Positions 1 to 13,373 of a stretch of 13,373 nucleotides of DNA are shown one piece after another. The stretch lies in NCBI GenBank assembly GCA_001412365.1, contig LKUE01000387.1, positions 1 through 13,373 of the forward strand, given 5' to 3'. The DNA comes from Desulfuromonas sp. SDB. Its GTDB lineage: Bacteria; SDB-A. The position numbers and the translations under genes were made by a program. The notes beneath the pieces are model-generated. The model saw only the letters and a program-made list of their open reading frames with translations, searched no databases and was not told the origin of the DNA. The stretch's first letter is position 1. Every line of letters begins with the position of its first letter.

Positions 1-92
1 CCACTGATAAACACAGAAAAACACAGAGAATTATGGTTACTGCTGTGCAGGTGCCCAACACCCCAAAAAAAGGACAGGATCAACAGGATAAG
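1..92. repeat. non-coding left edge with short repeat-like tracts
   Basis: No supportable gene is visible here. The stretch holds two copies of ACACAGA (11-17 and 21-27) separated by AAA, and two copies of CAGGAT (75-80 and 84-89). Degenerate cacaga/caggat-rich sequence is often dispersed between genes in some FCB-group genomes, so this may be the end of a family of intergenic repeats. That reading comes from general knowledge and cannot be tested from one window. Confidence 0.35.
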
Positions 93-118
93 AAAAGTTG
101 GAAGCAAAAGCTTCCAAC
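87..118 (-). terminator. intrinsic terminator of the 139-663 gene
   Basis: A perfect 9-bp inverted repeat (GTTGGAAGC at 97-105, GCTTCCAAC at 110-118) encloses a 4-nt loop. Read on the minus strand the stem is followed at once by TTTTCTTAT, the U-rich tract expected of a rho-independent terminator. It starts 20 nt after the stop codon of the minus-strand gene, which fits its 3' end. Confidence 0.8.
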
Positions 119-138
119 ATGTTAAAAAGAAAATTTTA

Positions 139-663
139 TTAGAAAAATAGTTTACTGAAGATCTGGTTTAAGTTTTCTCCCTGTTCAAAGATAGTGTTGC
201 TGTAGTTTCTCTGTTCGGAGTTAAAGCTGGTAAAACTCTTGGAATCCTCAATTATTTTTATCAAGTCACCATTGTAATAATAGAATCTCATCTCCGGCAT
301 CATTGGATTTCCGGTAACATAGGCAAATATCAGTTCTCCATATCCGTCGTACAAAAATTCAGAGTATTCATGATAGGCAGACCGATCCACTACCAGCATT
401 GCCTTTCTTAAGTTATCCGGATAGGGATTTTCTTCGGAAAAACCAAAGTAAAAGGTCAGCACCGGATGATATACTCCCACTGCGGGATAGGAAAGTCCAT
501 CTGCATTGATATCCACCACTGTTTTGTACAGTTCACCGCTGTTGATCTCTTCATTGGTCTGATTGTAGATATCCCTTATATTTTGAACTTGTTCGGTTAC
601 TCCCGCCGATAATAAACCTGTTATAATAAAGAAAAGTCCGATAATTAAACTAAATCTTCGCAT
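139..663 (-). CDS. small exported protein of unknown function
   Basis: A 174-residue protein that I do not recognise. Residues 1-20 form a typical Sec signal peptide: MRRF, then a hydrophobic run LIIGLFFIITGLL, then an SA-G cleavage site near residue 20. No lipobox cysteine is present, and there is no cysteine anywhere in the protein, so it is probably released to the periplasm or beyond rather than lipidated. The mature part is acidic and rich in aromatic residues (for example FYYYNGDL at 127-134), suggesting a small beta-rich domain. The start is supported by a strong Shine-Dalgarno sequence, AAGGGAGG, just upstream of the ATG. The gene stands alone, is divergent from the Kelch-like gene and ends at its own terminator. 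It could be a periplasmic or surface accessory protein, but no function can be assigned. Confidence 0.75.
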   Translation of the reverse strand: MRRFSLIIGLFFIITGLLSAGVTEQVQNIRDIYNQTNEEINSGELYKTVVDINADGLSYPAVGVYHPVLTFYFGFSEENPYPDNLRKAMLVVDRSAYHEYSEFLYDGYGELIFAYVTGNPMMPEMRFYYYNGDLIKIIEDSKSFTSFNSEQRNYSNTIFEQGENLNQIFSKLFF

Positions 664-691
664 AACTATCCTCCCTTTAATTTATAATTAA

Positions 692-721
692 ATATTAAAG
701 ATTCTTAGTATTTTTTATCAA
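692..721 (-). promoter_or_regulatory. possible promoter of the exported-protein gene
   Basis: On the minus strand TTGATA (721-716) is followed after 18 nt by TAATAT (697-692), each matching four to five of six sigma-70 consensus positions. Transcription would begin near 685, about 20 nt before the ATG and just ahead of the Shine-Dalgarno site. The region is very AT-rich, so chance matches are likely. Confidence 0.3.
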
Positions 722-727
722 TTTATA

Positions 728-756
728 TTGAATAACTCAACCTATTGTGCAATAAT
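728..756 (+). promoter_or_regulatory. probable promoter of the Kelch-like/repeat-protein operon
   Basis: TTGAAT (728-733) and AATAAT (751-756) are separated by 17 nt, matching four and five of six consensus positions. The inferred start site, near 763, gives a leader of about 32 nt before the ATG at 795. An interrupted palindrome TATTG-TG-CAATA (743-754) overlaps the -10 element and could be an operator, though its arms are only 5 bp. Confidence 0.5.
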
Positions 757-794
757 ATTACTGTGAGTAAATATTTAATATAATGGAGGGTGTT

Positions 795-2183
795 ATGTTT
801 AATAAATTATCTTTCTCAATTATATTGTTAATTGTTAATTTTTTTTCATTAAATTCCCATAACCATTATTTGACAGATAACAATTCTTCTGATTACTTAA
901 AAAATTCACCTATAATAAGAGATTCAGTATCTTGGGAAAATCTTCCCCCTCTCCCTGAAGCAAAAAGTTGTCCCTGCGTTGGATATCATTATGGGCTATA
1001 CTCGGGAGAAACAAAAATATATGTTTTCGGAGGGGATCCTCCTGAACAAAATGATATAATGTACATATTTGATTTTAACTCGATGTCCTGGTCTGCTCCT
1101 ATTCAGATGCCCTGTAGCATAAGTCATTCTGGTTGTGTAACATTTGGCAATACAATATATTTGATCGGTGGATATCCGGCAAAAAATGAAATTTGGAAAT
1201 ATAATACCGATGACAACACATTTTCTCAAGGATCTAATTTAATTACAGGAGTAAGTGATCCATTAATTACACTAGATTGGTTTGGTCCAATTGTTATTAT
1301 TGGGGGATATGACGGTCAAAATCCAGTTAATAATGTACAGGTTTATTTCAATGATAGTGTTTATGAGGTTGATCCAATACCTGAGTCAAGAATGGCAGGT
1401 TTTGCTTTTTATATCAATGAGTACGAATTTACCCAACCAATTCCTGATGATGCGATCTTAGTTGGACTAGGATCGGACAGCAATGGTGAATTTCCTACTA
1501 ATACCTATTTAGGAATCATACATGAGCCTTATGGAAATAATATTGATTCAATTATTTGGCAAGCAGGTCCAAATTTTCCAGGAGAAGGCTGTGTTAATCC
1601 GGGTTATAGTTCTATATTAGGTTACCCATGGTGGCTTTGGGATGGTTTTTTTGTATTTGGTGGTCATAATACGAACTATCTAAATCAGTGTTATAAGTTC
1701 AACAGGTCAACAAAAAGCTGGGAGCAATTGCCAGATCTCCCTGATCCACCTAGATCTCATATTGGAAGCTGTACTTTTCCTTTAAATAACCATTTATATT
1801 TATCTTCAATTGGGGGTTTTAAAGATTCAGCATTATCAAATGTTCATATCTTATATTCTGATATATATGTCTTTGGATCTGAGGAAACTCCTCCGGTTAT
1901 CTCCAATCAAGTTAGTTGTCATCTGCTATCTTCCAATATAATCAGAGAACAATTCAAACTGGAGTTTACCCTTCCCTACTCCTCTAATGTTAATTTTTCT
2001 GTTTTTGACATCTCCGGCAGGAAGATCTACCAGCAGGGAAGTCGGAATTTAACTCCCGGAATCCATTATCTGGAATGGAATCTCAATGATAACCATGGAG
2101 AACAACTGGCAACGGGAGTTTATTTCTTTGTACTGGAGACCGAATCAGGGTTATTTAAAAGTAAATTTACAGTATTTAGATAA
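795..2183 (+). CDS. secreted Kelch-like beta-propeller protein with C-terminal sorting domain
   Basis: A 462-residue exported protein. An in-frame ATG at 783 is possible, but its codons contain the GGAGGG Shine-Dalgarno site (785-790), which lies 4 nt from the ATG at 795. I therefore start at 795, giving a clean signal peptide (MFNKLSFSIILLIVNFFSLNS). Residues about 45-360 hold Kelch-type blades: IYVFGG (75-80), IYLIGG (121-126), IVIIGG (166-171), FFVFGG (285-290) and YLSSIGG (335-341), with trailing W or Y positions such as SMSWS and STKSWEQLP. Residues about 385-462 resemble the type IX secretion/FlgD-like C-terminal domain: a beta-sandwich pattern with FDISGRKIYQ (404-413), ATGVYFFVLET (439-449) and a terminal KFTVFR. 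The likely role is a surface or secreted binding protein. The ligand is unknown. It is followed 27 nt later by a similar secreted protein. Confidence 0.85.
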   Translation: MFNKLSFSIILLIVNFFSLNSHNHYLTDNNSSDYLKNSPIIRDSVSWENLPPLPEAKSCPCVGYHYGLYSGETKIYVFGGDPPEQNDIMYIFDFNSMSWSAPIQMPCSISHSGCVTFGNTIYLIGGYPAKNEIWKYNTDDNTFSQGSNLITGVSDPLITLDWFGPIVIIGGYDGQNPVNNVQVYFNDSVYEVDPIPESRMAGFAFYINEYEFTQPIPDDAILVGLGSDSNGEFPTNTYLGIIHEPYGNNIDSIIWQAGPNFPGEGCVNPGYSSILGYPWWLWDGFFVFGGHNTNYLNQCYKFNRSTKSWEQLPDLPDPPRSHIGSCTFPLNNHLYLSSIGGFKDSALSNVHILYSDIYVFGSEETPPVISNQVSCHLLSSNIIREQFKLEFTLPYSSNVNFSVFDISGRKIYQQGSRNLTPGIHYLEWNLNDNHGEQLATGVYFFVLETESGLFKSKFTVFR

Positions 2184-2210
2184 ATTATCAACAATGTAAA
2201 AGAGGTTTTT

Positions 2211-3590
2211 ATGAAAAATTGTTATCTATTACTTGTAATTTTTTTATTCTTTTTTTCAGTTTTAAATTCAGCTACCTGGATCAGGTATTACGGTGGAGAT
2301 GGAGAAGATGTTGGATACTGTGTTGCTCAGGATCTGGATGGTTATTATATCGTGGTCGGCTATACCAACTCTTATGGGATGGGAAATAAAGATATCTATG
2401 TATTAAAGATAGACTCTCTGGGTGACACTATCTGGACTAAGACCTATGGAACATCAGGGGATGATATTGCTTATGACCTCGAAATAACAGCTATAAATGA
2501 TTATGTAATTTGCGGACAAGTAAACTCAGGTCCCTGCTATGTTATGAAGATCGATACTGGAGGAAATCTAATCTGGGACAAAACCTATTCTGCTTTTCCA
2601 AAGGCAACTTCCATAATCAGTACTTTCGATAATTGTTTTGTGATTGCCGGAAATGGATTATTAGTTAAAGTTGATTCAATGGGAGATACTCTTTGGTCCT
2701 ATTATGATAACCAACCATACCCTTGGTGGTTTGATAAATGCACGGTTGATGAGACAATAGACAGTTGTTATCTCACCACTCAAGGAGATGATAGTAATGG
2801 CCTTATAATAGTAAACAAATTCAATCGGTTTGGATATTTATTGGATTCATTTTATATTGGTTACTTAAGCTATTACAAATGCCCAATAATTGCCCTTGAT
2901 GATAAAGGATTTATCATTACCGGTACAACTGATCAAATGATGGTTTCTCCAGCTTTTGTCATAAGATGTGATTCTCTGGGGAATATTATTTGGGGGGGAT
3001 ATGAGGATTTAAATAAATCATTCCTTAATCCACTACCTGATCATGTCGATCATTATACTGATATAACATTGAATTACAATAATAATATTGTTGGATGTGG
3101 TTTTAATACAAATTATTCATATTTATGGGATTCATATATATTTGAAATTCAATATGATAGTGGTTCAGGATTGTGGTCAAGAAGTTTTGGAGGAGGTATT
3201 GTATTTTATTCAATACATGTTACTAATGATAAAGGATATATAACTTGTGGATATGCACCCTATCAACAAGAAAAAAATATCATCCTGATGAAAACCGACT
3301 CTCTTGGCTACAATGCTATGGAAGAACCTGGAATTACAATAAATGAACCTAATATTAATACTATCAATTTCAATCAAATTTCAAACACTTTTAATATCGA
3401 TTTATCTACCAATACAAATTTGCATTTAAAAATCTACGATATTAATGGTAGAATCATTTCTTCTTTTCATGAAGGTTTACTATCTTCTGATCAGCATCAA
3501 ATTCCATTTACTTCTGCACCCGGAGTTTATTTCTTTTCCTTAGAAACCGATACTGATGTATTCAAAGGTAAATTTACGGTAATTAGATAA
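2211..3590 (+). CDS. secreted repeat (propeller-like) protein with C-terminal sorting domain
   Basis: A 459-residue exported protein with signal peptide MKNCYLLLVIFLFFFSVLNS, cleaved before ATW. Residues 22-370 contain a degenerate repeat built on KxDSxGxxxW: KIDSLGDTIWTKTYG (66-80), KIDTGGNLIWDKTY (113-126), KVDSMGDTLW (153-162), RCDSLGNIIW (252-261), QYDSGSGLWSRSFGG (314-328) and KTDSLG (361-366). Glycine-rich strands such as YYIVVGYTN and GFIITGTTD lie between them. This pattern is typical of large secreted propeller-like proteins of FCB-group bacteria. Residues about 392-459 form a C-terminal sorting-like domain (IYDINGRIIS at 408-417, PGVYFFSLET at 437-446, KFTVIR at the end), matching the end of the upstream neighbour. 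The gene follows that neighbour by 27 nt with AAGAGG ahead of the ATG, so the two are probably cotranscribed. No clear terminator follows. The function is probably at the cell surface; the ligand is unknown. Confidence 0.82.
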   Translation: MKNCYLLLVIFLFFFSVLNSATWIRYYGGDGEDVGYCVAQDLDGYYIVVGYTNSYGMGNKDIYVLKIDSLGDTIWTKTYGTSGDDIAYDLEITAINDYVICGQVNSGPCYVMKIDTGGNLIWDKTYSAFPKATSIISTFDNCFVIAGNGLLVKVDSMGDTLWSYYDNQPYPWWFDKCTVDETIDSCYLTTQGDDSNGLIIVNKFNRFGYLLDSFYIGYLSYYKCPIIALDDKGFIITGTTDQMMVSPAFVIRCDSLGNIIWGGYEDLNKSFLNPLPDHVDHYTDITLNYNNNIVGCGFNTNYSYLWDSYIFEIQYDSGSGLWSRSFGGGIVFYSIHVTNDKGYITCGYAPYQQEKNIILMKTDSLGYNAMEEPGITINEPNINTINFNQISNTFNIDLSTNTNLHLKIYDINGRIISSFHEGLLSSDQHQIPFTSAPGVYFFSLETDTDVFKGKFTVIR

Positions 3591-3652
3591 TAACTAAACT
3601 TGCAAAAGTAAATACCACTTTAATGAAAAAATTTCAGAAATTAAAAAAACAC

Positions 3653-3681
3653 TTGACAAATAAATAAACACTGTTTATATT
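3653..3681 (+). promoter_or_regulatory. strong sigma-70-like promoter of the small-ORF unit
   Basis: A perfect TTGACA (3653-3658) is followed by a 17-nt spacer and TATATT (3676-3681), five of six matches to the -10 consensus. It is the best promoter match in the window. Transcription would start near 3688, giving a leader of about 40 nt before the ATG at 3729. Confidence 0.75.
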
Positions 3682-3728
3682 TATAGCATGTGTTTGAATT
3701 AAATTACAATGTTTAATAGGAGGTAGAG

Positions 3729-3824
3729 ATGAAAGGAAACAGATTTAAATCAGGAAAACTGCTGAAGATTATTTTGAAATCTCAGGATCTTCAGATTTCC
3801 AGTCAAGTTTCAATCAAGCTTTAA
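3729..3824 (+). CDS. small ORF of 31 codons, possibly the broken 5' end of a small gene
   Basis: The ATG follows AGGAGG with a 5-nt spacer, and the ORF encodes a basic 31-residue peptide (MKGNRFKSGKLLKIILKSQD, then 11 more residues). It is the first ORF after the strong promoter at 3653-3681. The frame that becomes open at 3749 and continues to 4003 would join this ORF by a -1 shift in the AAAA tract at 3755-3758. So this may be a real short peptide, an upstream leader ORF, or the 5' part of a 91-codon gene with a one-base deletion. I do not recognise the sequence. Confidence 0.45.
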   Translation: MKGNRFKSGKLLKIILKSQDLQISSQVSIKL

Positions 3825-3868
3825 CTGAAAAAGAACAGAGAAAAGAAAGGTGTTTCAAGGAGGGTAAA

Positions 3869-4003
3869 ATGAAAAATCGGAGAAGAAGTAAGCTTGATCA
3901 AATTTTAAAAAAGATTGATTTCGACGAATTGAACTACCGAAGCTTCATCTCTGATCAATCAATAACAATCTACGATACCGGTATTGATATTGAATTCAGG
4001 TAA
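3869..4003 (+). CDS. small basic protein of 44 residues, unknown function
   Basis: It begins MKNRRRSKLDQILKKIDFDE and ends GIDIEFR. The N-terminus is strongly basic (KNRRR), followed by a short predicted amphipathic helix (LDQILKKIDFDEL) and a beta-prone tail (SITIYDTGIDIEF). The start has one of the best ribosome-binding sites in the window, AAGGAGG with a 5-nt spacer. The same frame is open upstream of the ATG back to 3749, so the protein may be longer (see the frameshift finding). It lacks a signal peptide or membrane segment and is probably cytoplasmic. It lies between the promoter at 3653 and the terminator at 4023, so it belongs to a short dedicated transcript. No family is recognised. 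Confidence 0.55.
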   Translation: MKNRRRSKLDQILKKIDFDELNYRSFISDQSITIYDTGIDIEFR

Positions 4004-4022
4004 TTGCCCCCTAAAATAATTA

Positions 4023-4050
4023 AGGGAGGATAAGTATCCTCCCTCTTTTT
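4023..4050 (+). terminator. strong intrinsic terminator, possibly bidirectional
   Basis: A 9-bp perfect stem (GGGAGGATA at 4024-4032, TATCCTCCC at 4035-4043), extendable by an A-T pair, is followed by CTTTTT on the plus strand. It ends the small-ORF transcript 20 nt after its stop. On the minus strand the stem is followed by TTAATTATTTT, so it may also stop transcripts of the minus-strand operon, whose last stop codon is at 4107. Confidence 0.88.
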
Positions 4051-4106
4051 ATACTTCTCTGATAAATTCCCTTAATACTTAATTTACAGTAAATTTCAAC
4101 AAAAAA

Positions 4107-5189
4107 TTAAAATCTAAGTAGTGCGGCAATACTGCCCAGTTTTTTTAATTCTTCAATATTGTCCGCATATTCGATTAATGCAGAAGTTTTATAAGCCCAT
4201 TCGGTAATTTCATTTACTAAATCCACCGAAAATACATCTTCAGAATTACATAGAGGACATTTGTCAACTTCTTCAGGGATGAGATTGCCACAATTCCGGC
4301 ACCTGATTCCCTGGGGCTGATAGTTACGGTCAACCAGCACTGCTTCCACCCTACCCACTTTCAGATTTTTCAACACTTCCTCCAACCCCACTACCGCCAA
4401 TCCACCGGCAACATATTTTGATTTTATCTGGTTCCATAAATTTTCCTCTTCCTGGCGCTCTAATTCAGTGAAAAGCTTGTAAATTTCTTCATCAATATTT
4501 TGCTGTTTTAAATCAATTACTTCATCAGTTATCAATTTATTTTTTAATCTCAAAGGTAATTCTTTTTCCAGATGAGTGAGTACTTCCTTTGCCCCTACCA
4601 TTACTATTCGGGAATAATCATGCTCATGTTCCAACTGATGAAGATAATCTATAATATCCTGAACATAATGGTGCAACTGCTTGTCCCGTCGGCGTTCATA
4701 TCTCTGCTGAGACCAACCTCCCACCTTTACATGATTTTTAATTTTACCTTTGATTACTTTTTGATCCTGCTCTTTTAACGCTGAAATTAGAAAAACCCTT
4801 GCCCGGTCGTTATCAGCTACAACCACTGCAAAATCCTCATATTCATCTTTTATCTCAGCAATCGGCTTTATGAAAGGAGAGGAATCAATAATTACCTGAT
4901 CGGAAATTGGTATTTCCAATTCATAAAATTCAGTAAAATTTAAAAGCCAGCAGATGAAGAAGACATAACAGCCCTTAAGGTTAATTTCCTTTTTCAACAG
5001 TTCGTGCAAGAGTTTAATATTTTCATTGTAAATTTCTTTTTCATAATCATTTGCAATAACATGACCCAGGTTTTCCAGTCGCTGATTAATTGTCTTTAAA
5101 TCTTTAATATCCTCAACATAAACAGTTAAAAAAGCTCTATCTTTTGATGAGATTTTGGAAAGTTCTCTTAAATCAATTTCACTAATCAT
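4107..5189 (-). CDS. bacterial archaeo-eukaryotic release factor 1-like protein (baeRF/Vms1-like)
   Basis: About 360 residues (363 if the ATG at 5198 is used; numbers below follow that longer form). The diagnostic segment is VGGWSQQRYERRRD (159-172). It aligns without gaps to the GGQSAQRFxRLRE loop of archaeal/eukaryotic release factor aRF1/eRF1, which triggers peptidyl-tRNA hydrolysis, but W stands at the Gln position of GGQ and Gln recurs two residues later. GGxSQ loops of this kind are known in bacterial baeRF and Vms1-like families. A C-terminal zinc ribbon (C300, C303, C314, C317) resembles domain 3 of aRF1. The residue 1-115 region differs from the stop-codon recognition domain and may not read codons. 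The likely role is ribosome rescue or peptidyl-tRNA cleavage in the cytoplasm; this is inference. Start choice: AAAGGA (5203-5198) lies 8 nt from the ATG at 5189, one base after the stop of the upstream lyase gene, so translation is probably coupled. Confidence 0.8.
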   Translation of the reverse strand: MISEIDLRELSKISSKDRAFLTVYVEDIKDLKTINQRLENLGHVIANDYEKEIYNENIKLLHELLKKEINLKGCYVFFICWLLNFTEFYELEIPISDQVIIDSSPFIKPIAEIKDEYEDFAVVVADNDRARVFLISALKEQDQKVIKGKIKNHVKVGGWSQQRYERRRDKQLHHYVQDIIDYLHQLEHEHDYSRIVMVGAKEVLTHLEKELPLRLKNKLITDEVIDLKQQNIDEEIYKLFTELERQEEENLWNQIKSKYVAGGLAVVGLEEVLKNLKVGRVEAVLVDRNYQPQGIRCRNCGNLIPEEVDKCPLCNSEDVFSVDLVNEITEWAYKTSALIEYADNIEELKKLGSIAALLRF

Positions 5190-5190
5190 A

Positions 5191-6363
5191 TTATACATCC
5201 TTTACTGCTATTTTTATTTTATGTAATCCTTTTACCAACAATTCCCGGGGGCAAGCGATATTAATTCTCTGAAATCCCTCTCCCCCCTTTCCAAATATAT
5301 GACCGGGGTCAAGGGCAATTTTTCCCCTATTTAACAACCGCTGGTCAATTTCCTGATCGGATAAACTTAATCCTCTGAAATCAAGCCAAATTAAGTAGGT
5401 TCCCTGAGGTTTTACCGGAATGATATTTAAATTTTGCTCCTGAAAATAATTCATCACTATTTCAACATTTTCCTCCAGATAAATCAATAATTGATCCAGC
5501 CAGTTTTCACATTGATCATAGGCGGCGATGGTCGCCTCAATACTTAAGGGATCGCTGTGCATTACTCCATTTTGTAAAAGAACATGATTATATCTACTGC
5601 GTAACTTTTCGTTTTCAATAATTACTGACGAGGATTTTAATCCGGCAATATTGAAGGTCTTGCTGGGAGCAATACAGGTAATGGTATTTTTTGATATTTC
5701 ATCTGATAAGGAAGCAGTAATATTATGCTTATAACCCGGATAAATCAGATCAAAATGAATTTCATCGGAAACTATCAGTATTTCATTTCTTAAACAGATT
5801 TCCACTAACTGGATTAGCTCTGATTTCTCCCAAACTCTTCCCACCGGATTATGGGGGGAACATAAAATTATCATTTTTGTTCTGTCATCAATCTGACCTT
5901 TTAATTCATCTAAATCCATAATGTACTTATCATTGGAGTATTTCAATTCATTGCATACTAACTGCCTTCCGTTATTTTTCACTGCGGGAAAGAAAGGGTA
6001 GTAAACCGGAGTCTGCACGATGACTTTATCTCCTGGATGAGTAAATGCCTGTATTGCATAATTTACCGCAGGTACTACACCGGGGGAATATAAAATCCAT
6101 TCCTGTCTGATTTTCCAGTTATGTCTTTTTAAAAGCCAGTCTATGATTGCCTGATAATAACTGTCGGGGAAAAGAGTATAACCAAACACTCCATGATCTA
6201 TTCTTTTCCGCAAAGCTTCAATAACTTCAGGAGGAGTGGCAAAATCCATATCTGCCACCCACATGGGAAAGAGATTTTTCTCCTGGAAATACTTATCCAC
6301 TCCGTCCCACTTAATGGAATTTGTGTTGTACCGGTCAATAATTTGATCAAAGCTGTATTTCAT
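5191..6363 (-). CDS. MalY/PatB family PLP-dependent C-S lyase (cystathionine beta-lyase type)
   Basis: A 390-residue fold-type I PLP enzyme of the usual length for the family. The N-terminus carries the MalY/PatB signature region (SIKWD at 16-20, then FPMWVADMDFATPPEV at 32-47). Other landmarks are SPHNPVGRVW (169-178), DEIH (200-203, the Asp that pairs with the pyridine nitrogen), the Schiff-base lysine K235 in APSKTFNIAGLK, and the carboxylate-binding R366 in FQRINIACPR. The family cleaves C-S bonds of cystathionine or cysteine conjugates to a thiol or homocysteine plus pyruvate and ammonia, in the cytoplasm. It lacks a signal peptide. Some members act as aminotransferases, so the substrate is not fixed. 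The ATG overlaps the stop of the upstream cyclase gene (TAATG around 6363), and the release-factor-like gene follows one base after its stop, so all three are probably translated as a coupled set. Confidence 0.9.
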   Translation of the reverse strand: MKYSFDQIIDRYNTNSIKWDGVDKYFQEKNLFPMWVADMDFATPPEVIEALRKRIDHGVFGYTLFPDSYYQAIIDWLLKRHNWKIRQEWILYSPGVVPAVNYAIQAFTHPGDKVIVQTPVYYPFFPAVKNNGRQLVCNELKYSNDKYIMDLDELKGQIDDRTKMIILCSPHNPVGRVWEKSELIQLVEICLRNEILIVSDEIHFDLIYPGYKHNITASLSDEISKNTITCIAPSKTFNIAGLKSSSVIIENEKLRSRYNHVLLQNGVMHSDPLSIEATIAAYDQCENWLDQLLIYLEENVEIVMNYFQEQNLNIIPVKPQGTYLIWLDFRGLSLSDQEIDQRLLNRGKIALDPGHIFGKGGEGFQRINIACPRELLVKGLHKIKIAVKDV

Positions 6364-9300
6364 TATTGTCCCTGTTTTATTTTTTTATCTATCTCCGCAA
6401 TTTTATCTTTTATTTTGGTATAATTAATTTCAGCAGCAATCTTTTTTAATTGTTTTAAATTTTCCCGGACTTTTTTTACTGATTTATTATTTAAATAGAT
6501 CTGGGTAATACTTATTAAAATATCGCATTTAAACTGTAAATGATTGATTTGCTCTGCAATATCTGCTGCTTGCTGATAGAAATCAACCGCTTTTTTAATT
6601 TTATCCTGGCTGGAATAAATATCACCGAGCTGTTTACTTGTATTCATAACATCTTGTTTGTTGTCTTGTTTTTTAGATATTTCCAGGTTTTTCATAAAAT
6701 ACTCTATCGCCTTCATATTTTTTTTTAGTCTTTGATAAATAAGTGCTATATTCCCATAAGCATTAGCAATGCCCTGAGTATCTCCCAGTTCCTGGGATAA
6801 CTGCAGCTTCTTTTCAAAACTTTTCATAGCCTGGTTTAATTGATTCATTGCCATATAAATCACTCCAATATTTCCAATTATCTTGGATATACCCAGTTTA
6901 TCCCCGATTTCTTCAGCATCTTTCTGATAGGTCAAGAAATAATTCATCGCCTTTTGATAATCTTTTTGATGATAATAAATTAAGCCGATGTTTCCTGTAG
7001 CTTTCATTCCCAGAATTTTATCATTATTTTTTTCAGCTATTTCCGATGCCTGCTTATAAAAATCAAGCGCTCTGTTATAATCTCCCTGACTCATGTTAAG
7101 AATACCGATATTGATAAATACTCTGGCTTTTTCCGTCTGATCATGCATTTTATCCAGCAGGATTAGCTTCTGTTGGTAACAATTCGAGGCTTCCTGCCAT
7201 TTACCTAATTTCCAGTACAATACTCCCAAGTCCCCTATTGTTTTGGACAGCCCCCATTGATTATTTTGATCGGAAAACAGCTTTTCGGATATTTGATAAT
7301 GTTCCAGGGAAGATTTATAGTCACCCCGATTGTACAGCAAGCATCCTAAAAGTCTATGCATAATTGCAAGATAATTTTTTAAGTCAAATTTTTCAGCTAA
7401 TTCCTTTACATAATAATAGTATTCTTCAGATTTCTGCCAGTTTCCAATTAATTCCTCAACTTCTGCTATGTCCAACAACAGTTTGATGTACTGTTCAATT
7501 CTATCCATGGAAATCTTTAAATTTGATGATTTTTGATCAATATCTGTAAAGTATTTTTCAGCACGGTGATAGTAATTAATAGCACTATGATTTTTATATA
7601 AATTCTGAGACTGTTTGCCTGCTTTAATTAAATAATAGGGTGCTTTTTGTTTATTTTCCGCTTGTTCGTAGTGATAAGCTAAATCACCGTAATGTAATGA
7701 TAACTTTTGATGATAAACTGTTTCTATGGTTTCACCGGCTAATTGATGCAGATTTCTAAGTTGTTTTTTCAACTGCATCTGGTAAACACTTTCCCGGATA
7801 AGAGCATGTTTAAACAGGTATTTTAATTCACTGATCTTCATCCAGATTATTTCCTGTTCTCCTTCTTCCAGCAAACTGAATATTGGCATTCGTTTAAACA
7901 TATACTGGAGAATATTGGTGGCAAATTCTCTCCCCAATACCGACGCAGTTTTCACCACATCTTTCAATTGGTCGGATAACTGATCAATTCTGGAAATTAT
8001 AATTGAATTAATACTGGAAGGCAGATCGCCTTCTTTCTGACTTAAATTATAATGCTTATCAATTAAGCTGTTCTCAATTAAATACATCAGCAATTGTTCA
8101 ATAAAAAAGGGATTGCCTTCAGTGAGGTTCCAAACTAAATCTACTGTTTTTGCGGGTATACTTTTCTTTTGTCTGCTGGAGGTTTTCAATATTCTGGTAA
8201 TCAGTTTTGTTGATAGGGACTTATTCAATCTTTGCAATTTAATTCGCCTATAACTGACATCTTTTACCTCTAAAGTCATCTCTGAATGATCTTCGCCATA
8301 TCGGCAGGACAGGACGATCATCAGGGGTATATTTTCAATATTTCTGGTTAAAACTTCAAGCCAATTTGCGGTATCTTTATCTATCCAAACAGCATCTTCA
8401 ATTTCAATAACCGTAGGTTTTAAATGACATTCAGCGAGTATAATATTTTTCAATCCAAACAATGTATTCCGATAACGCGCTTCCGGATCCAACTGGTCAA
8501 AAAGGATATCCGGAATTGAAATACCCAGTAAATTAGCAATGAATGACCGGGAACGTTTTAATTCAGTCTGTAAATCTGAGGATTTTGTTTTTTCAACCAG
8601 CAACTGATAATTTTCAAGGAATTTTTCTTTTCTCTGTTGCTGGTTATTAATTTCAGAAATTTGAAAATAAGTCTGGAGAAAATAAATCAAGGGATTAAAA
8701 CTCTGTTTCAGTATTTCATCACAGGGCAAGGAAAACCAATTAATTTTGCCAGTCAATACAGAATCTTGAAATTCTTTTATCAGTCTGGTTTTTCCTAATC
8801 CTGCTTCTCCGTCAATAAAGACAAATCCGCTGAAGTTTCCTTTTTTTGTATTTTCAAATATTTCAATTAATTCCTGTAACTCTGATTCCCTTCCCACCAT
8901 ATCAGTTAAAATATTGATGGGAGATGAGACTGTTTTTTTCCGAATGACTGTGTACAATTTCTGGGTTTGATCAATTCCTTTAAATTTCAATGATTTTGCA
9001 GGAGTTAACTGATAATAATCTTGACATTGTCTATACATTTTATTATCTACCCAACATTCACCCCAGGTGGCATAAGCAGATATTCTCGCTGCTAAATTTA
9101 CTACATCCCCCAGGACAGTGTATTCAGATTGTAATTCACTGCCTACAAATCCAGCATAAGCTATTCCCGAGGAAATTCCAATTCGACAGCTAAATTGATC
9201 TATTATTGAAACATCCAGGGCAAAATCAGCAGCTCTTCGGAATATCTTTTCTCTAGTTTGAGGAGCTCCAAAAACCACCAGGATTATTCCGCCTTTATCC

Positions 9301-10124
9301 CCGAAATCAATTTTATTGAAATACCCGCCATAGATCTGGGATAACTCCAGAATTTTAACTGCCTGACTGGAGAAATGGTGATTGTAATTGAAATTTACAA
9401 AGCAGGTGATAATATCCCTGAATTCACCGGCAAATTTTTGGTCGGCTTGAATTTCCGGAAAAAACAGTTTGTTAATACAATCATCAAATGACCGAGAGTG
9501 AACATAAAAAGCATTTTCTTCCGGATATAAATCAACGGAATACAATCCTGGCTGAATTTCCTGTATACTCTGAAATATCTTTCTGTCATTAAACTGTTTT
9601 AAATAAGCTTCATGGATAACTATTTTGTTGTTCCTGCTGAATTTGCTTATATAGCCAGCTTGCTGGATTACTTCTCCGATGAAATAATACAGATTCTGGG
9701 TTGAATTGGGAATTATTTCCCAGGAAATTTCACCGGAGGCTAAACCCAGTTTAGCTTCAAGATGATAAGTGCCGAATCTTGTTTCAATATCCTTGATTTC
9801 CTTTAATTCCCGTATAATCTGGTCAGCGACCTTTAAAATTTTAAGGGGAGAGTTTAGTTCTGTATCAAAAGCAGCAGTAAAAGCATCTCCGGCAAAAGAA
9901 GTTATAAAACCACCGCTGTTTTGGATTATTTTAACTCCCGGAGAAAATACGCTGTTGATTATTTCAGATAGAATTTCAGCCCCTTCTTTTCCATTTTTCA
10001 TCAGTTCCTGGGTCATATGGGTAAAACCAACTATATCAATAAATATCACCCGGGCATTAAAATGCCCTTTGAACTGATTCAGTTTGTACTTTCCGGCGAT
10101 AAATGTTGGTACAAGATTTCTCAT
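6363..10124 (-). CDS. soluble adenylyl cyclase-like protein: tandem class III cyclase, P-loop ATPase, TPR array
   Basis: A 1253-residue cytoplasmic protein with the domain order of eukaryotic soluble adenylyl cyclase (sAC/ADCY10). C1 (about 22-175) has the metal-binding Asp pair D30 (FIDIVGFT) and D80 (SFAGD). C2 (about 238-395) has the adenine-binding K277 (DKGG), T336 (EYTVLGD) and the transition-state pair N343/R347 (VNLAAR). The first metal Asp of C2 is replaced by N244, as expected where only one active site is catalytic. Residues 410-800 are a STAND-like ATPase with GRESEL (411-416), Walker A GEAGLGKT (439-446) and candidate Walker B IEIED (573-577). Residues about 920-1210 hold eight TPR-like units with exact 40-residue spacing (G927, G967, G1007, G1047, G1087, A1127, G1167, T1207). 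The likely product is cAMP. No membrane segment is seen. The ATG at 10124 lies at the usual distance before the cyclase domain but has only a weak Shine-Dalgarno sequence. Confidence 0.88.
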   Translation of the reverse strand: MRNLVPTFIAGKYKLNQFKGHFNARVIFIDIVGFTHMTQELMKNGKEGAEILSEIINSVFSPGVKIIQNSGGFITSFAGDAFTAAFDTELNSPLKILKVADQIIRELKEIKDIETRFGTYHLEAKLGLASGEISWEIIPNSTQNLYYFIGEVIQQAGYISKFSRNNKIVIHEAYLKQFNDRKIFQSIQEIQPGLYSVDLYPEENAFYVHSRSFDDCINKLFFPEIQADQKFAGEFRDIITCFVNFNYNHHFSSQAVKILELSQIYGGYFNKIDFGDKGGIILVVFGAPQTREKIFRRAADFALDVSIIDQFSCRIGISSGIAYAGFVGSELQSEYTVLGDVVNLAARISAYATWGECWVDNKMYRQCQDYYQLTPAKSLKFKGIDQTQKLYTVIRKKTVSSPINILTDMVGRESELQELIEIFENTKKGNFSGFVFIDGEAGLGKTRLIKEFQDSVLTGKINWFSLPCDEILKQSFNPLIYFLQTYFQISEINNQQQRKEKFLENYQLLVEKTKSSDLQTELKRSRSFIANLLGISIPDILFDQLDPEARYRNTLFGLKNIILAECHLKPTVIEIEDAVWIDKDTANWLEVLTRNIENIPLMIVLSCRYGEDHSEMTLEVKDVSYRRIKLQRLNKSLSTKLITRILKTSSRQKKSIPAKTVDLVWNLTEGNPFFIEQLLMYLIENSLIDKHYNLSQKEGDLPSSINSIIISRIDQLSDQLKDVVKTASVLGREFATNILQYMFKRMPIFSLLEEGEQEIIWMKISELKYLFKHALIRESVYQMQLKKQLRNLHQLAGETIETVYHQKLSLHYGDLAYHYEQAENKQKAPYYLIKAGKQSQNLYKNHSAINYYHRAEKYFTDIDQKSSNLKISMDRIEQYIKLLLDIAEVEELIGNWQKSEEYYYYVKELAEKFDLKNYLAIMHRLLGCLLYNRGDYKSSLEHYQISEKLFSDQNNQWGLSKTIGDLGVLYWKLGKWQEASNCYQQKLILLDKMHDQTEKARVFINIGILNMSQGDYNRALDFYKQASEIAEKNNDKILGMKATGNIGLIYYHQKDYQKAMNYFLTYQKDAEEIGDKLGISKIIGNIGVIYMAMNQLNQAMKSFEKKLQLSQELGDTQGIANAYGNIALIYQRLKKNMKAIEYFMKNLEISKKQDNKQDVMNTSKQLGDIYSSQDKIKKAVDFYQQAADIAEQINHLQFKCDILISITQIYLNNKSVKKVRENLKQLKKIAAEINYTKIKDKIAEIDKKIKQGQ

Positions 10125-10140
10125 ATGTCTTCAGGTAATA

Positions 10141-10187
10141 GTTTTAAAACATCATATAAAGGTAAGTTTAAATCATATCATAAAGGT
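10141..10187 (-). repeat. imperfect direct repeat upstream of the cyclase gene
   Basis: Read on the minus strand, ACCTTTATGATATGATTTAAAC (10187-10166) is followed, starting 24 nt later, by the similar ACCTTTATATGATG-TTTTAAAAC (10163-10141). Both share ACCTTTAT at the start, an ATGAT core and a TTTAAA(A)C end, with a small gap. They overlap the candidate -10 region and leader, so they could be regulator-binding sites or a duplicated promoter segment. Confidence 0.45.
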
Positions 10188-10204
10188 TTTCAATTTTTGT
10201 TCAA
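10165..10204 (-). promoter_or_regulatory. candidate promoter region of the cyclase-lyase-release factor operon
   Basis: Two overlapping minus-strand sigma-70-like arrangements are visible: TTGAAC (10204-10199), a 16-nt spacer and TATGAT (10182-10177); or TTGAAA (10193-10188), a 17-nt spacer and TAAACT (10170-10165). Either would give a leader of about 35-45 nt before the ATG at 10124. The 136-nt gap is the longest within the minus-strand cluster, so a separate promoter here is plausible. Sequence composition makes chance matches easy. Confidence 0.45.
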
Positions 10205-10260
10205 CTAGCCTAATCCTATAAAAACTGTGATTATAAAAAAATTGTTAAAAAATATTTTAT

Positions 10261-11646
10261 TTAGATTTTATCCACATCCACCGCATAAACCCATCTCCCC
10301 CTTCTGAACCAGGCAATTCCAAACAAGGACACCGATATGTTGGAGACGAACATCGCAATCCAAATTCCCAGAGGTCCAAGATTGAACATCAACGCCAAAA
10401 GGAAAGCCAGAGGGACTCTAATCACCCACAACCGGGCAATACTCATAAACATAATCGGCTTGGTATCCCCCGCCCCCTGAAAAGCACCATTTACCACAGT
10501 GAAGAGTCCAAAAAATATTACCGAGGGTGAGACAATTTTAAACAATATTTCCCCCCACCAAATTGTTTCAGGATCATTTACAAAAAATTTGACAAAGTAA
10601 TTGCCCCAGAAAAAGGTTAGAGCGGTAGCGGGTATTAGAAAAGCTAAAATTGCCAGCACTGAAACTCTGACCACTCTTCTAGCCCGGGCAATATCTTTTG
10701 CTCCCACACTTTGTCCCACCATAGTAGTAGTAGCACGGGAAATACCCATTGCCGGCTGATTGTACAGGCTGATAATTCTATTGCCCACTCCAAATGCAGC
10801 GATGACCGCAGTTCCAAAGTAATTTACCAAACCCTGTAGTACCGTAAAACCTAAAGCGGACAAAGCCTGCCCGATAGATGCGGGAAGACCAATTCTTAAA
10901 AACAATAAAACCGATTCTTTGCGGGGAATCATATCTGAAAATCTAAGTTTGATCCCCTTATTTCCCTTAAACAATATGTACAGAGCAATTATGGAAGCTA
11001 TTGATCTGGCAATAAGGGTAGCCAGAGCAGCTCCTACCACCCCCAGGGGAGGGAAAAATAGAAGACCAAAAATCATCAACGGATCCAGAATAACATTTAT
11101 GACAATGGTAATCGCCTGAACCCACAGGGGAGTTACGGTGTTGCCAATCCCCTGGAGACTTCCCTGGAGGACAAAAAATCCAAACATAAAGGGCAATCCG
11201 GCTAAAATAATGATCATGTAATTATGAGTATGTTCAAATACATCAGGGGGGGTCTGCAGAAGGTGAAGAATAAAATCCGTAGTTAAAATGCCAATAACTG
11301 AAAGGACAATGGAAAGAGAAAATAATATAATGGCAGTCTGCCCCAGATAAAAATCAACTTTCCGGTCATCTCCTTTGCCCTTGGATTGAGCAATTAAAGT
11401 AGTTCCAGCCATAGACATGCCCATTCCGAATATCACCAGGAAGAATATTATATTGAAGGCAATGGTGGGGGCGGATAGTTCTTCTTTGCCTAATTTTCCC
11501 AGGAAAAAGGCATCGGTAATATTGTACAAGGTCTGCAGTAAACTGCTGAGCATAAGGGGAAAGGCAATCTTGATTAAACTAGTGAATATTCCTAAATCGC
11601 TCTTCTCAACTTTCAATAACGATTTAATTATTTTAGTAAAAATCAA
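10261..11646 (-). CDS. MATE family multidrug/cation antiporter
   Basis: A 461-residue integral membrane protein of typical MATE length. It shows the two-fold internal repeat of the family. In the N-half: IAFPLMLSSLLQTLYNITDAF (27-47), a Thr/Gln loop GTTLIAQSKGKGD (81-93) and LQGIGNT (164-170). In the C-half: IGLPASIGQALSALGF (252-267), TTTMVGQSVGAKD (306-318) and FQGAGDTKP (389-397). About 12 hydrophobic segments are visible. The family exports cationic drugs or metabolites from the inner membrane using a Na+ or H+ gradient; the substrate here is unknown. The start is TTG at 11646, three bases after the stop of the upstream TPR gene. No ATG or GTG with a better ribosome site lies before the first membrane segment (the next Met, residue 32, is inside it). 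Its position between two sAC-like paralogues suggests insertion or duplication around it, and the 3-nt spacing argues for cotranscription with the upstream gene. Confidence 0.92.
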   Translation of the reverse strand: MIFTKIIKSLLKVEKSDLGIFTSLIKIAFPLMLSSLLQTLYNITDAFFLGKLGKEELSAPTIAFNIIFFLVIFGMGMSMAGTTLIAQSKGKGDDRKVDFYLGQTAIILFSLSIVLSVIGILTTDFILHLLQTPPDVFEHTHNYMIIILAGLPFMFGFFVLQGSLQGIGNTVTPLWVQAITIVINVILDPLMIFGLLFFPPLGVVGAALATLIARSIASIIALYILFKGNKGIKLRFSDMIPRKESVLLFLRIGLPASIGQALSALGFTVLQGLVNYFGTAVIAAFGVGNRIISLYNQPAMGISRATTTMVGQSVGAKDIARARRVVRVSVLAILAFLIPATALTFFWGNYFVKFFVNDPETIWWGEILFKIVSPSVIFFGLFTVVNGAFQGAGDTKPIMFMSIARLWVIRVPLAFLLALMFNLGPLGIWIAMFVSNISVSLFGIAWFRRGRWVYAVDVDKI

Positions 11647-11649
11647 ATT

Positions 11650-13373
11650 TCACTTCTCTATCTCTGCCAGTATTCTTTCTACTTCATAATCTTTGCCTTC
11701 AGCCAGGATTTGATCGGTTATCTGTTTTACTTTATTTTTGTATTTCTTTTTTGAAGTTAGTTTATACAACTCAGCATTAATTTCAACCAATCTAACCAGG
11801 TCTTCACTATTTTCAGATAATAACTCGGTTAGCTTTTCCTCCTTTAACTTGATACTGATATCCTTACGGTAAACCAAGCAGTATAAATTAGATCTGTACA
11901 GCATCAGTTCATGGTCAATTTCCAGAGCAATTTTCTTTGAATGTTGTGCCGATTTCAATGCCAGGTCATTTTCACCCAGCTTATGTTCGACAAAAGACTT
12001 CAGCAGCAAAACTTCAGTTAACAGGAACTTACTGTTCAGTTCAATCAGCATTTCCACAGATTTTTCAAAGTAGTTTAATGAAACCGGGTAATCTCCCCGG
12101 TATCTATTCAACTCCCCCAAACTGGAATAGACATGGGCAATATTAACCTTATCTCCAATCTCCGCAGCCATAACTAATTTTCGGTTAAAATAATCTTCAG
12201 CTAGCTCATATTCCCCCAATTTATTGTAAACTACTCCTATGTTGCCTAAAGCTAGAGCAATTAATTTTCTATTCCAATACTTTTTAGAGGAGTTAAGCTG
12301 CTGTTTATAACATTGCAGAGATTTGTCAAATTGATTCATATAGTAATAAACATTGCCCAAATTTCCCACAGCATAACTGTAGGAAACTATATCCTCGGTA
12401 TTCCGGGAAATTTCAATTGCCTTATTGAAAATTTTTTCCGCAGTATTCAACTTGCCTTTGTTAAGATGAATCATGCCCAGGTTGACCAGGGATTTTTTTA
12501 AGGAATCTACAAAAGAACTTTTCACCGCATATCGGTAGGTTGTCATATAATTTTTTAAAGCAAGATCATAATCTCCCTGATGAAAGTATATATTGCCTAA
12601 GTTTAAATATATATCGGTTAGAATGTTATCAAATGAACTGTTTTCAAATATTTCCTTTGCTTCATTCAGCAATTTTTCTGCTTCATCATAGAATCCCGTA
12701 TTTACTTTAAGCCATCCATAGCTGGCTAGAATTGTTCCGTAATTATATTTATTTTCTATTTCCTTGACCAGACTTAATGCCTGTTGATGGTAAACTTCAG
12801 AATCAGGCCAATTACCGGTATAATTTAAAATCCACAGTATTTTATTCAATATTTGAAACTTCTCCTCATTATCAGCGGTGAAATCTAAAATTCTAATATA
12901 CAGATTCAAATTATATTTGGAGATATTGGTAAATGATCTTGAATTCGCCGATTTCAGAAGTATATCTTTAGCTTTTTCAATCATATTTCCCCGTTCATAG
13001 TGGAAAGCTAACTGGTCATAATAATTTTCCAGACAATCTTGGTACATCTGATTCATTTTTTCAGCAATAGACTGGTGGATTTTTACCAGATCTTTTTTTG
13101 TGTGCATATTGTAAACGGTTTCAGATATTATTTTGTGTTTAAACAAGTATTGTTCCGGTGTGATTTTTTCCCACAGCTGGTGTTTTTCTCCCTGCTGTAA
13201 ATTTTTTTCAATGTCATCTTTCCCCACTATTTCAGCTAATAAATGAGGATCAAATTTATCTCCAATAACCGCAGCAACCTTCACCAACTTTTTGAAATTT
13301 TCATCAAGAGTATCTATTCTGGCGGCAATAAACGCATTTAGATTATCCGGAATTTCAAAATCGGTTTTTTTTA
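11650..13373 (-). CDS. C-terminal part of a sAC-like ATPase/TPR signalling protein (cut by window edge)
   Basis: Open from the window edge to the TGA at 11650, giving at least 573 residues. A TTG at 13287 is not the real start: the frame continues upstream as KKTDFEIPDNLNAFIAARID, matching DLPSSINSIIISRID at residues 700-714 of the neighbouring cyclase-like protein. Further matches are LVKVAAVIGDKF against VVKTASVLGREF, and YLFKHKIISETVY against YLFKHALIRESVY. The visible part is therefore the end of the STAND-like ATPase module plus a TPR array. Seven units sit at exact 40-residue spacing, with glycines at 191, 231, 271, 311, 351, 391 and 431 counting from 13287; examples are LGNIYFHQGDYDLALKNY and LGNVYYYMNQFDKSLQCY. 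Whether it carries cyclase, kinase or other N-terminal domains lies outside the window. It is followed by the MATE gene after 3 nt. Confidence 0.85.
   Translation of the reverse strand, partial: KKTDFEIPDNLNAFIAARIDTLDENFKKLVKVAAVIGDKFDPHLLAEIVGKDDIEKNLQQGEKHQLWEKITPEQYLFKHKIISETVYNMHTKKDLVKIHQSIAEKMNQMYQDCLENYYDQLAFHYERGNMIEKAKDILLKSANSRSFTNISKYNLNLYIRILDFTADNEEKFQILNKILWILNYTGNWPDSEVYHQQALSLVKEIENKYNYGTILASYGWLKVNTGFYDEAEKLLNEAKEIFENSSFDNILTDIYLNLGNIYFHQGDYDLALKNYMTTYRYAVKSSFVDSLKKSLVNLGMIHLNKGKLNTAEKIFNKAIEISRNTEDIVSYSYAVGNLGNVYYYMNQFDKSLQCYKQQLNSSKKYWNRKLIALALGNIGVVYNKLGEYELAEDYFNRKLVMAAEIGDKVNIAHVYSSLGELNRYRGDYPVSLNYFEKSVEMLIELNSKFLLTEVLLLKSFVEHKLGENDLALKSAQHSKKIALEIDHELMLYRSNLYCLVYRKDISIKLKEEKLTELLSENSEDLVRLVEINAELYKLTSKKKYKNKVKQITDQILAEGKDYEVERILAEIEK

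Follow-up and report, generated by a model that had tools for sequence, protein, structure and literature searches.

Does a bacterial cyclase that resembles human soluble adenylyl cyclase (sAC) in its catalytic core also respond to bicarbonate as the human enzyme does? The question is raised by a gene of Desulfuromonas sp. SDB on contig LKUE01000387.1, of which positions 1 to 13,373 were analysed (the window). A single open reading frame on the minus strand (6363..10124), annotated with Pfam, encodes a sAC-like protein of 1253 amino acids in which a tandem cyclase is followed by an AAA_16 ATPase and a TPR array; all parts of the protein named below lie on this strand.

Domain architecture of the protein

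Pfam identified two Guanylate_cyc domains, an AAA_16 domain (57.5 bits; cut-off 32.6) and TPR_12 (127 bits). The first cyclase domain, C1, occupies approximately residues 20–200 (9525..10067), as delimited by a phmmer match to human sAC C1 and by the strands and helices of an AlphaFold2 (AF2) model. The second, C2, covers approximately residues 232–397 (8934..9431) on the evidence of the phmmer match to human sAC C2, a Pfam match at 283–392, the AF2 model and rows 231–398 of a VIA-align superposition. A preliminary description of this DNA had confined the feature to 9055–10124, a range that covers residues 1–356 and falls short of the full element, since C2 runs to about residue 397 (approximately 8934) and the gene to 6363. 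The AAA_16 or STAND-type ATPase was located at residues 410–604 (8313..8897) by Pfam and motif scans, the latter of which revealed a Walker A motif (P-loop) GEAGLGKT at residues 439–446 and a GNPFF motif further on at 670. The TPR array, presumed to be the sensor, spans approximately residues 926–1240 (6405..7349) and was recognized by TPR_12, by TPR_MalT with a score of 45.0 bits that equals the cut-off, and by PDB sequence matches of the C-terminal half, nearly all of which were TPR proteins; neither MalT nor any other solved STAND regulator appeared among the matches of that search.

From the order of these domains, the protein has a cyclase-cyclase-ATPase-TPR architecture. It combines the attributes of a sAC-type class IIIb tandem cyclase, namely two class III domains per chain, a metal-binding Asp pair, the Lys, Thr, Asn and Arg of C2 and an ATPase with a TPR-like C-terminus, with those of a STAND NTPase with a TPR sensor, a P-loop NTPase module followed by a TPR superstructure. 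Full-length sAC is said to have been assigned the same cyclase-cyclase-ATPase-TPR-like layout by Kobayashi and colleagues in 2004.

Catalytic and bicarbonate-binding positions

A phmmer search of PDB sequences returned human sAC as the first match for both domains (E values of 1.4e-25 to 1.6e-25), and the core identity was 24–27%. Local alignment paired the metal ligands D30 (10035..10037) and D80 (9885..9887) with D47 and D99 of sAC, and K125, W135 and F148 with K144, M154 and V167. On the C2 side it paired K271 (9312..9314) with K334, which recognizes the base of ATP, K277 (9294..9296) with K340, T336 (9117..9119) with T405, the adenine-recognizing Thr of class IIIb, and N343 and R347 (9084..9098) with N412 and R416. 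The profile-profile alignment agreed with the residue equivalences for both domains, and in a hidden Markov model (HMM) built from 22 homologues every human residue fell in the matching column. Hence the assignment of D30, D80, T336, N343 and R347 in the preliminary description was upheld by all three kinds of alignment. Its choice of K277 as the equivalent of K334 has to be revised, as that position belongs to K271 (FNK271IDFGDK277G versus INK334VFMFDK340G); K277 lies in the DKG loop between β2 and β3 of C2, which in human sAC is FDKG at 338–341 (PMC12867704, Table 1). The residue spacings had also been described as equal to those of human sAC, which is true only of Thr to Asn (7) and Asn to Arg (4); the two Asp residues are 50 residues apart versus 52, and Lys to Thr is 65 (59 if K277 is used) versus 71.

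The same local, HMM and profile-profile alignments place S76 (9897..9899) opposite K95, a bicarbonate contact of sAC, and G157 (9654..9656) opposite R176, its bicarbonate switch, as had been proposed. The K95 and R176 pair that marks the mammalian bicarbonate-responsive sACs is thus missing from this protein.

Predicted structure of the catalytic core

Residues 1–400 were modelled with AF2 from 22 sequences, a check proposed in the preliminary description, giving a pLDDT of 92.8 and a pTM of 0.91. The first 24 Foldseek matches of the model were all human sAC (E values of 5.9e-30 and weaker). In VIA-align, superposition on sAC gave Z scores of 37.6–40.2 at 2.7–3.3 Å, with the best matches (Z of about 40) extending over 383–392 residues at 2.7–2.9 Å, and membrane cyclases came next with Z scores of no more than 36. 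The predicted fold is therefore of the sAC type, and sequence, fold and alignments concur on a sAC-type tandem core in which no catalytic residue is missing. C2 lacks Asp where C1 carries its metal ligands, and only one active site is therefore expected.

Bicarbonate residues in bacterial tandem cyclases

To place S76 and G157 in context, we assembled 105 tandem cores, 37 from the phylum of the window (its own genome and three relatives) and 68 from 29 other genomes or records. These 68 came from a sweep of 290 genomes in which up to six candidates per genome were scored. After alignment of all cores to a single HMM, duplicates were removed. The profile used to collect the cores derives from this cyclase family, and the related genomes in the set are not independent of one another.

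The catalytic positions were held throughout while positions 95 and 176 (human numbering) drifted. Asp was found at the D47 position in 35 of 37 cores of the phylum and 68 of 68 others, and at the D99 position in 36 of 37 and 68 of 68. The corresponding figures were 31 of 37 and 55 of 68 for Thr at 405, 33 of 37 and 68 of 68 for Asn at 412, and 33 of 37 and 65 of 68 for Arg at 416; position 334 within the phylum was Lys in 18 and Arg in 9 of 37. By comparison, position 95 was Lys in only one core of the phylum and in 15 of the other 68 (with Arg in five more), and position 176 was Arg once in each group, the one within the phylum being in a degenerate copy (L059); Ala occupied it in 40 of the 68. 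The paralogues had Ser, Val, Gly, Thr, Asn, His, Asp or Ala at position 95, apart from the one Lys, and Ala, Ser, Val, Gly, Asn, Tyr, Ile or Phe at position 176, apart from the Arg of the degenerate copy. Neither S76 nor G157 is conserved, then, even among paralogues. The K95/R176 pair occurred in none of the 105 cores, most of which kept their catalytic residues; loss of the pair is not peculiar to this protein and is the ordinary bacterial state.

A separate scan of named genomes with a three-sequence alignment yielded three loci, labelled Ca. Cloacimonadota, Ca. Mcinerneyibacterium and WOR-3. Three paralogues of related genomes (L077, L081 and L082) have Ser at the T405 position, Ile or Thr at N412 and Ser at K334, with the metal-binding Asp residues and R416 kept; judging from these substitutions, the subgroup perhaps has an altered substrate or reduced activity.

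Proposed regulation of the enzyme

R176 and D99 of ligand-free human sAC are joined by a salt bridge, which bicarbonate breaks (PMC12250328). In mammals, 100 of 100 sACs have both K95 and R176, and in most other animals a neutral residue replaces at least one of the two; neutral substitution of either in human sAC greatly reduces the bicarbonate response (PMC12867704). Earlier work called the class IIIb Thr predictive of a bicarbonate response (PMC3383692), and a 2011 review considered bicarbonate regulation to be conserved through evolution (PMC3085406). The two predictors disagree here, for T336 is kept and the human bicarbonate-binding residues are absent from this protein and, as a pair, from all of the cores surveyed, which bears on whether the bacterial tandem enzymes sense bicarbonate at all.

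We consider it probable that the protein works as an adenylyl cyclase whose activity is controlled by the ATPase/TPR sensor in the same chain, and not by bicarbonate acting through K95 and R176 as in mammals. In the mechanism that we infer, C1 and C2 of this intracellular class III (sAC-type) cyclase would build one active site: D30 and D80 of C1 would hold the two metals, K271 and T336 of C2 would recognize adenine, and N343 and R347, also of C2, would serve the transition state. Human sAC binds bicarbonate at the pseudo-symmetric site through K95 and R176; here that site has S76 and G157, so that the human R176–D99 switch cannot operate, and the STAND-like ATPase and TPR sensor to which the cyclase is fused would most likely set its activity in response to a signal.

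Several points weigh against this. Human sAC with K95 or R176 neutralised is also catalytically less active (PMC12867704), and for that reason the protein studied here may have low activity as well. Bicarbonate might act by another route. Gating by the TPR/ATPase half is itself something that we infer, and the ligands of the cyclic nucleotide (cNMP)-binding domains, on which the cAMP output depends, are putative.

The other route could be regulation by bicarbonate or pH that dispenses with K95 and R176, as in the Thr-predicted class IIIb cyclases, to which T336 would assign the protein, or in the sACs of sea urchin and salmon, which lack R176 and K95, respectively, and are activated by pH and insensitive to bicarbonate (PMC12867704). 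We regard this as unlikely, since a shared ion site would be expected to leave a common signature in the residues at 95 and 176, and none was seen across the homologues; moreover, natural enzymes without one of the two residues show no bicarbonate effect (PNAS 2026). The preliminary description had also raised sensing of something else at the pseudo-symmetric site. Such a pocket might have been turned over to a different, perhaps hydrophobic, ligand in the manner of the forskolin site of membrane cyclases, and in its favor the residue at position 176 is mostly small (Ala, Ser, Val or Gly) and aromatic residues are frequent at W135 (Trp in 33 of 37 and 40 of 68 cores) and F148 (Phe in 34 of 37 and 44 of 68). 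However, these aromatics may merely fill the pocket, position 95 varies freely and no ligand is known, and we hold the idea to be improbable. Gating by the ATPase/TPR half, named in the same description, is the better candidate. Less probable still, in our estimation, is a weak or inactive cyclase pair that serves as scaffold for a working STAND-TPR unit: there are paralogues in which the equivalents of T405 and N412 have changed together (the L077, L081 and L082 subgroup) or most key residues have been lost (L059), but the protein of the window has every catalytic position intact, and these positions are nearly invariant across the 105 cores.

Paralogues and probable cyclic AMP output

From its sequence, the best description of the protein is a bacterial sAC-type adenylyl cyclase coupled to a STAND module, and the lack of the mammalian bicarbonate residues is normal within its family. 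It belongs to a known kind, the sAC-type cyclases, and loss of these residues has also been reported for most non-mammalian animal sACs (PMC12867704). What is less usual is how many paralogues occur in a single small genome. The assembly (3.14 Mb in 433 contigs) contains 31 Guanylate_cyc matches; counted by open reading frames, there are 15 complete tandem N-termini and two cut by contig ends, or approximately 17 tandem sAC-type cyclases. Those that were aligned are 28–40% identical to the protein of the window; the members of the set differ in sequence and would presumably differ in signal. Three other genomes of the phylum have 17–22 matches each, where a few genes are matched twice, and multiple copies occur in several other phyla as well. 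Several paralogues of the assembly are broken at contig ends, and two fragments (L055 and L050) whose contig ends overlap by 16 bases look like one gene. Beside the tandem set there are several ATPase-TPR proteins with one or no cyclase domain and the degenerate L059 (13468–14673, plus strand), a tandem cyclase-like protein of 401 amino acids that lacks the ATPase and TPR parts and most catalytic residues and is likely a pseudo-cyclase.

The resulting cAMP would be read by the cNMP-binding proteins of the genome. Each of the four genomes of the phylum has five cNMP_binding matches, which in the genome of the window are a protein of CRP size (224 amino acids), a cNMP-GGDEF protein, a cNMP-MscS protein and two short ones. 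These carry GE and RSA motifs (GD in one), which we take to resemble the cAMP cassette of CRP. The cNMP-MscS protein, a fusion of an MscS-type channel and a cNMP-binding domain, lies at L183, 2799–4295, on the minus strand. In genome G003 a cNMP-GGDEF gene stands head-to-head with a sAC-like gene, their starts overlapping (L179, 1314–2495 and 2458–6393), and in genome G002 about 105 bp separate a cNMP-domain gene from a divergent sAC-like gene (L180, 852–1955 and 2061–5870). This gene order speaks for cAMP as the output and for a possible connection with c-di-GMP, the ligands being putative. The next gene at L179 resembles nadC, as does the gene after the cNMP-GGDEF gene in the genome of the window (L182).

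More tentatively, the roughly 17 sAC-type STAND cyclases of this genome, in a small phylum, might be interchangeable front ends, each TPR array with its own signal, whose cAMP would enter a common pool. A few cNMP proteins would read that pool, among them a diguanylate cyclase gated by cAMP that would relay the signal to c-di-GMP. The pseudo-symmetric site would not be an ion site in such a scheme, and the mammal-type sensing of bicarbonate through K95 and R176 could have been added late to an old STAND-cyclase scaffold.

Gene neighborhood

Upstream of the cyclase gene and on the same strand are a MATE transporter gene and the C-terminal half of a second paralogue (11650..13371, minus strand), which comprises the end of the ATPase region and the TPR array, aligns to paralogue residues of approximately 680–1246 and is cut by the contig end. 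The next gene downstream, for a PatB-family C-S lyase (5191–6363, minus strand; TIGR04350, 504.6 bits), has an ATG that overlaps the cyclase stop codon. It is in turn overlapped by eight bases by the gene of an eRF1/baeRF-like protein (4107–5198, minus strand) that has a zinc-ribbon-like CxxC pair and whose nearest NCBIfam model is the MSMEG_1130 ribosome hibernation factor, at 77.7 bits and below the cut-off of 480. Because of these overlapping starts and stops, the gene layout suggests that the cyclase, the PatB-type lyase and the hibernation-factor homologue form one operon. MalY of E. coli, to which the lyase is 36% identical, represses the STAND regulator MalT (PMC10427625). An analogy with MalT and MalY was rejected as unsupported, for only one of the eight MalT-contact positions of MalY is kept in the lyase; and in the three related genomes the PatB homologue is not beside any of the sAC-like genes identified in this analysis, the nearest on the same contig being tens of kb away. 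At 783–3590 on the plus strand, two secreted proteins, one Kelch-type, have C-terminal type IX-like sorting tails for which the Pfam matches are weak.

Comparison with known systems

Human sAC (ADCY10) is the closest known system, being the best match in both sequence and fold. The bacterial protein shares with it the tandem C1–C2 arrangement with one active site, the equivalents of D47, D99, K144, K334, T405, N412 and R416, a DKG-type loop in C2 and, reportedly, the ATPase and TPR-like C-terminus, and it differs in having S76 for K95, G157 for R176, F148 for V167 and W135 for M154. CyaC of Spirulina platensis (1wc5), a bicarbonate-responsive class IIIb enzyme, gave a domain match with a Z score of 19.7. 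It has the class III fold and the adenine-recognizing Thr in common with the protein of the window; unlike that protein, CyaC has one catalytic domain per chain and acts as a homodimer, and hence is without a pseudo-symmetric regulatory site. The TOMM system kinase/cyclase fusion family TIGR03903 matches the C2-ATPase-TPR part over residues 276–866 with 170.5 bits, far below its cut-off of 705.75, and has a kinase domain that the present protein does not. The sea urchin and salmon sACs are comparable in that the catalytic residues are kept and a bicarbonate residue is lost (PMC12867704); sea urchin retains K95 and salmon R176, whereas the bacterial protein is without both.
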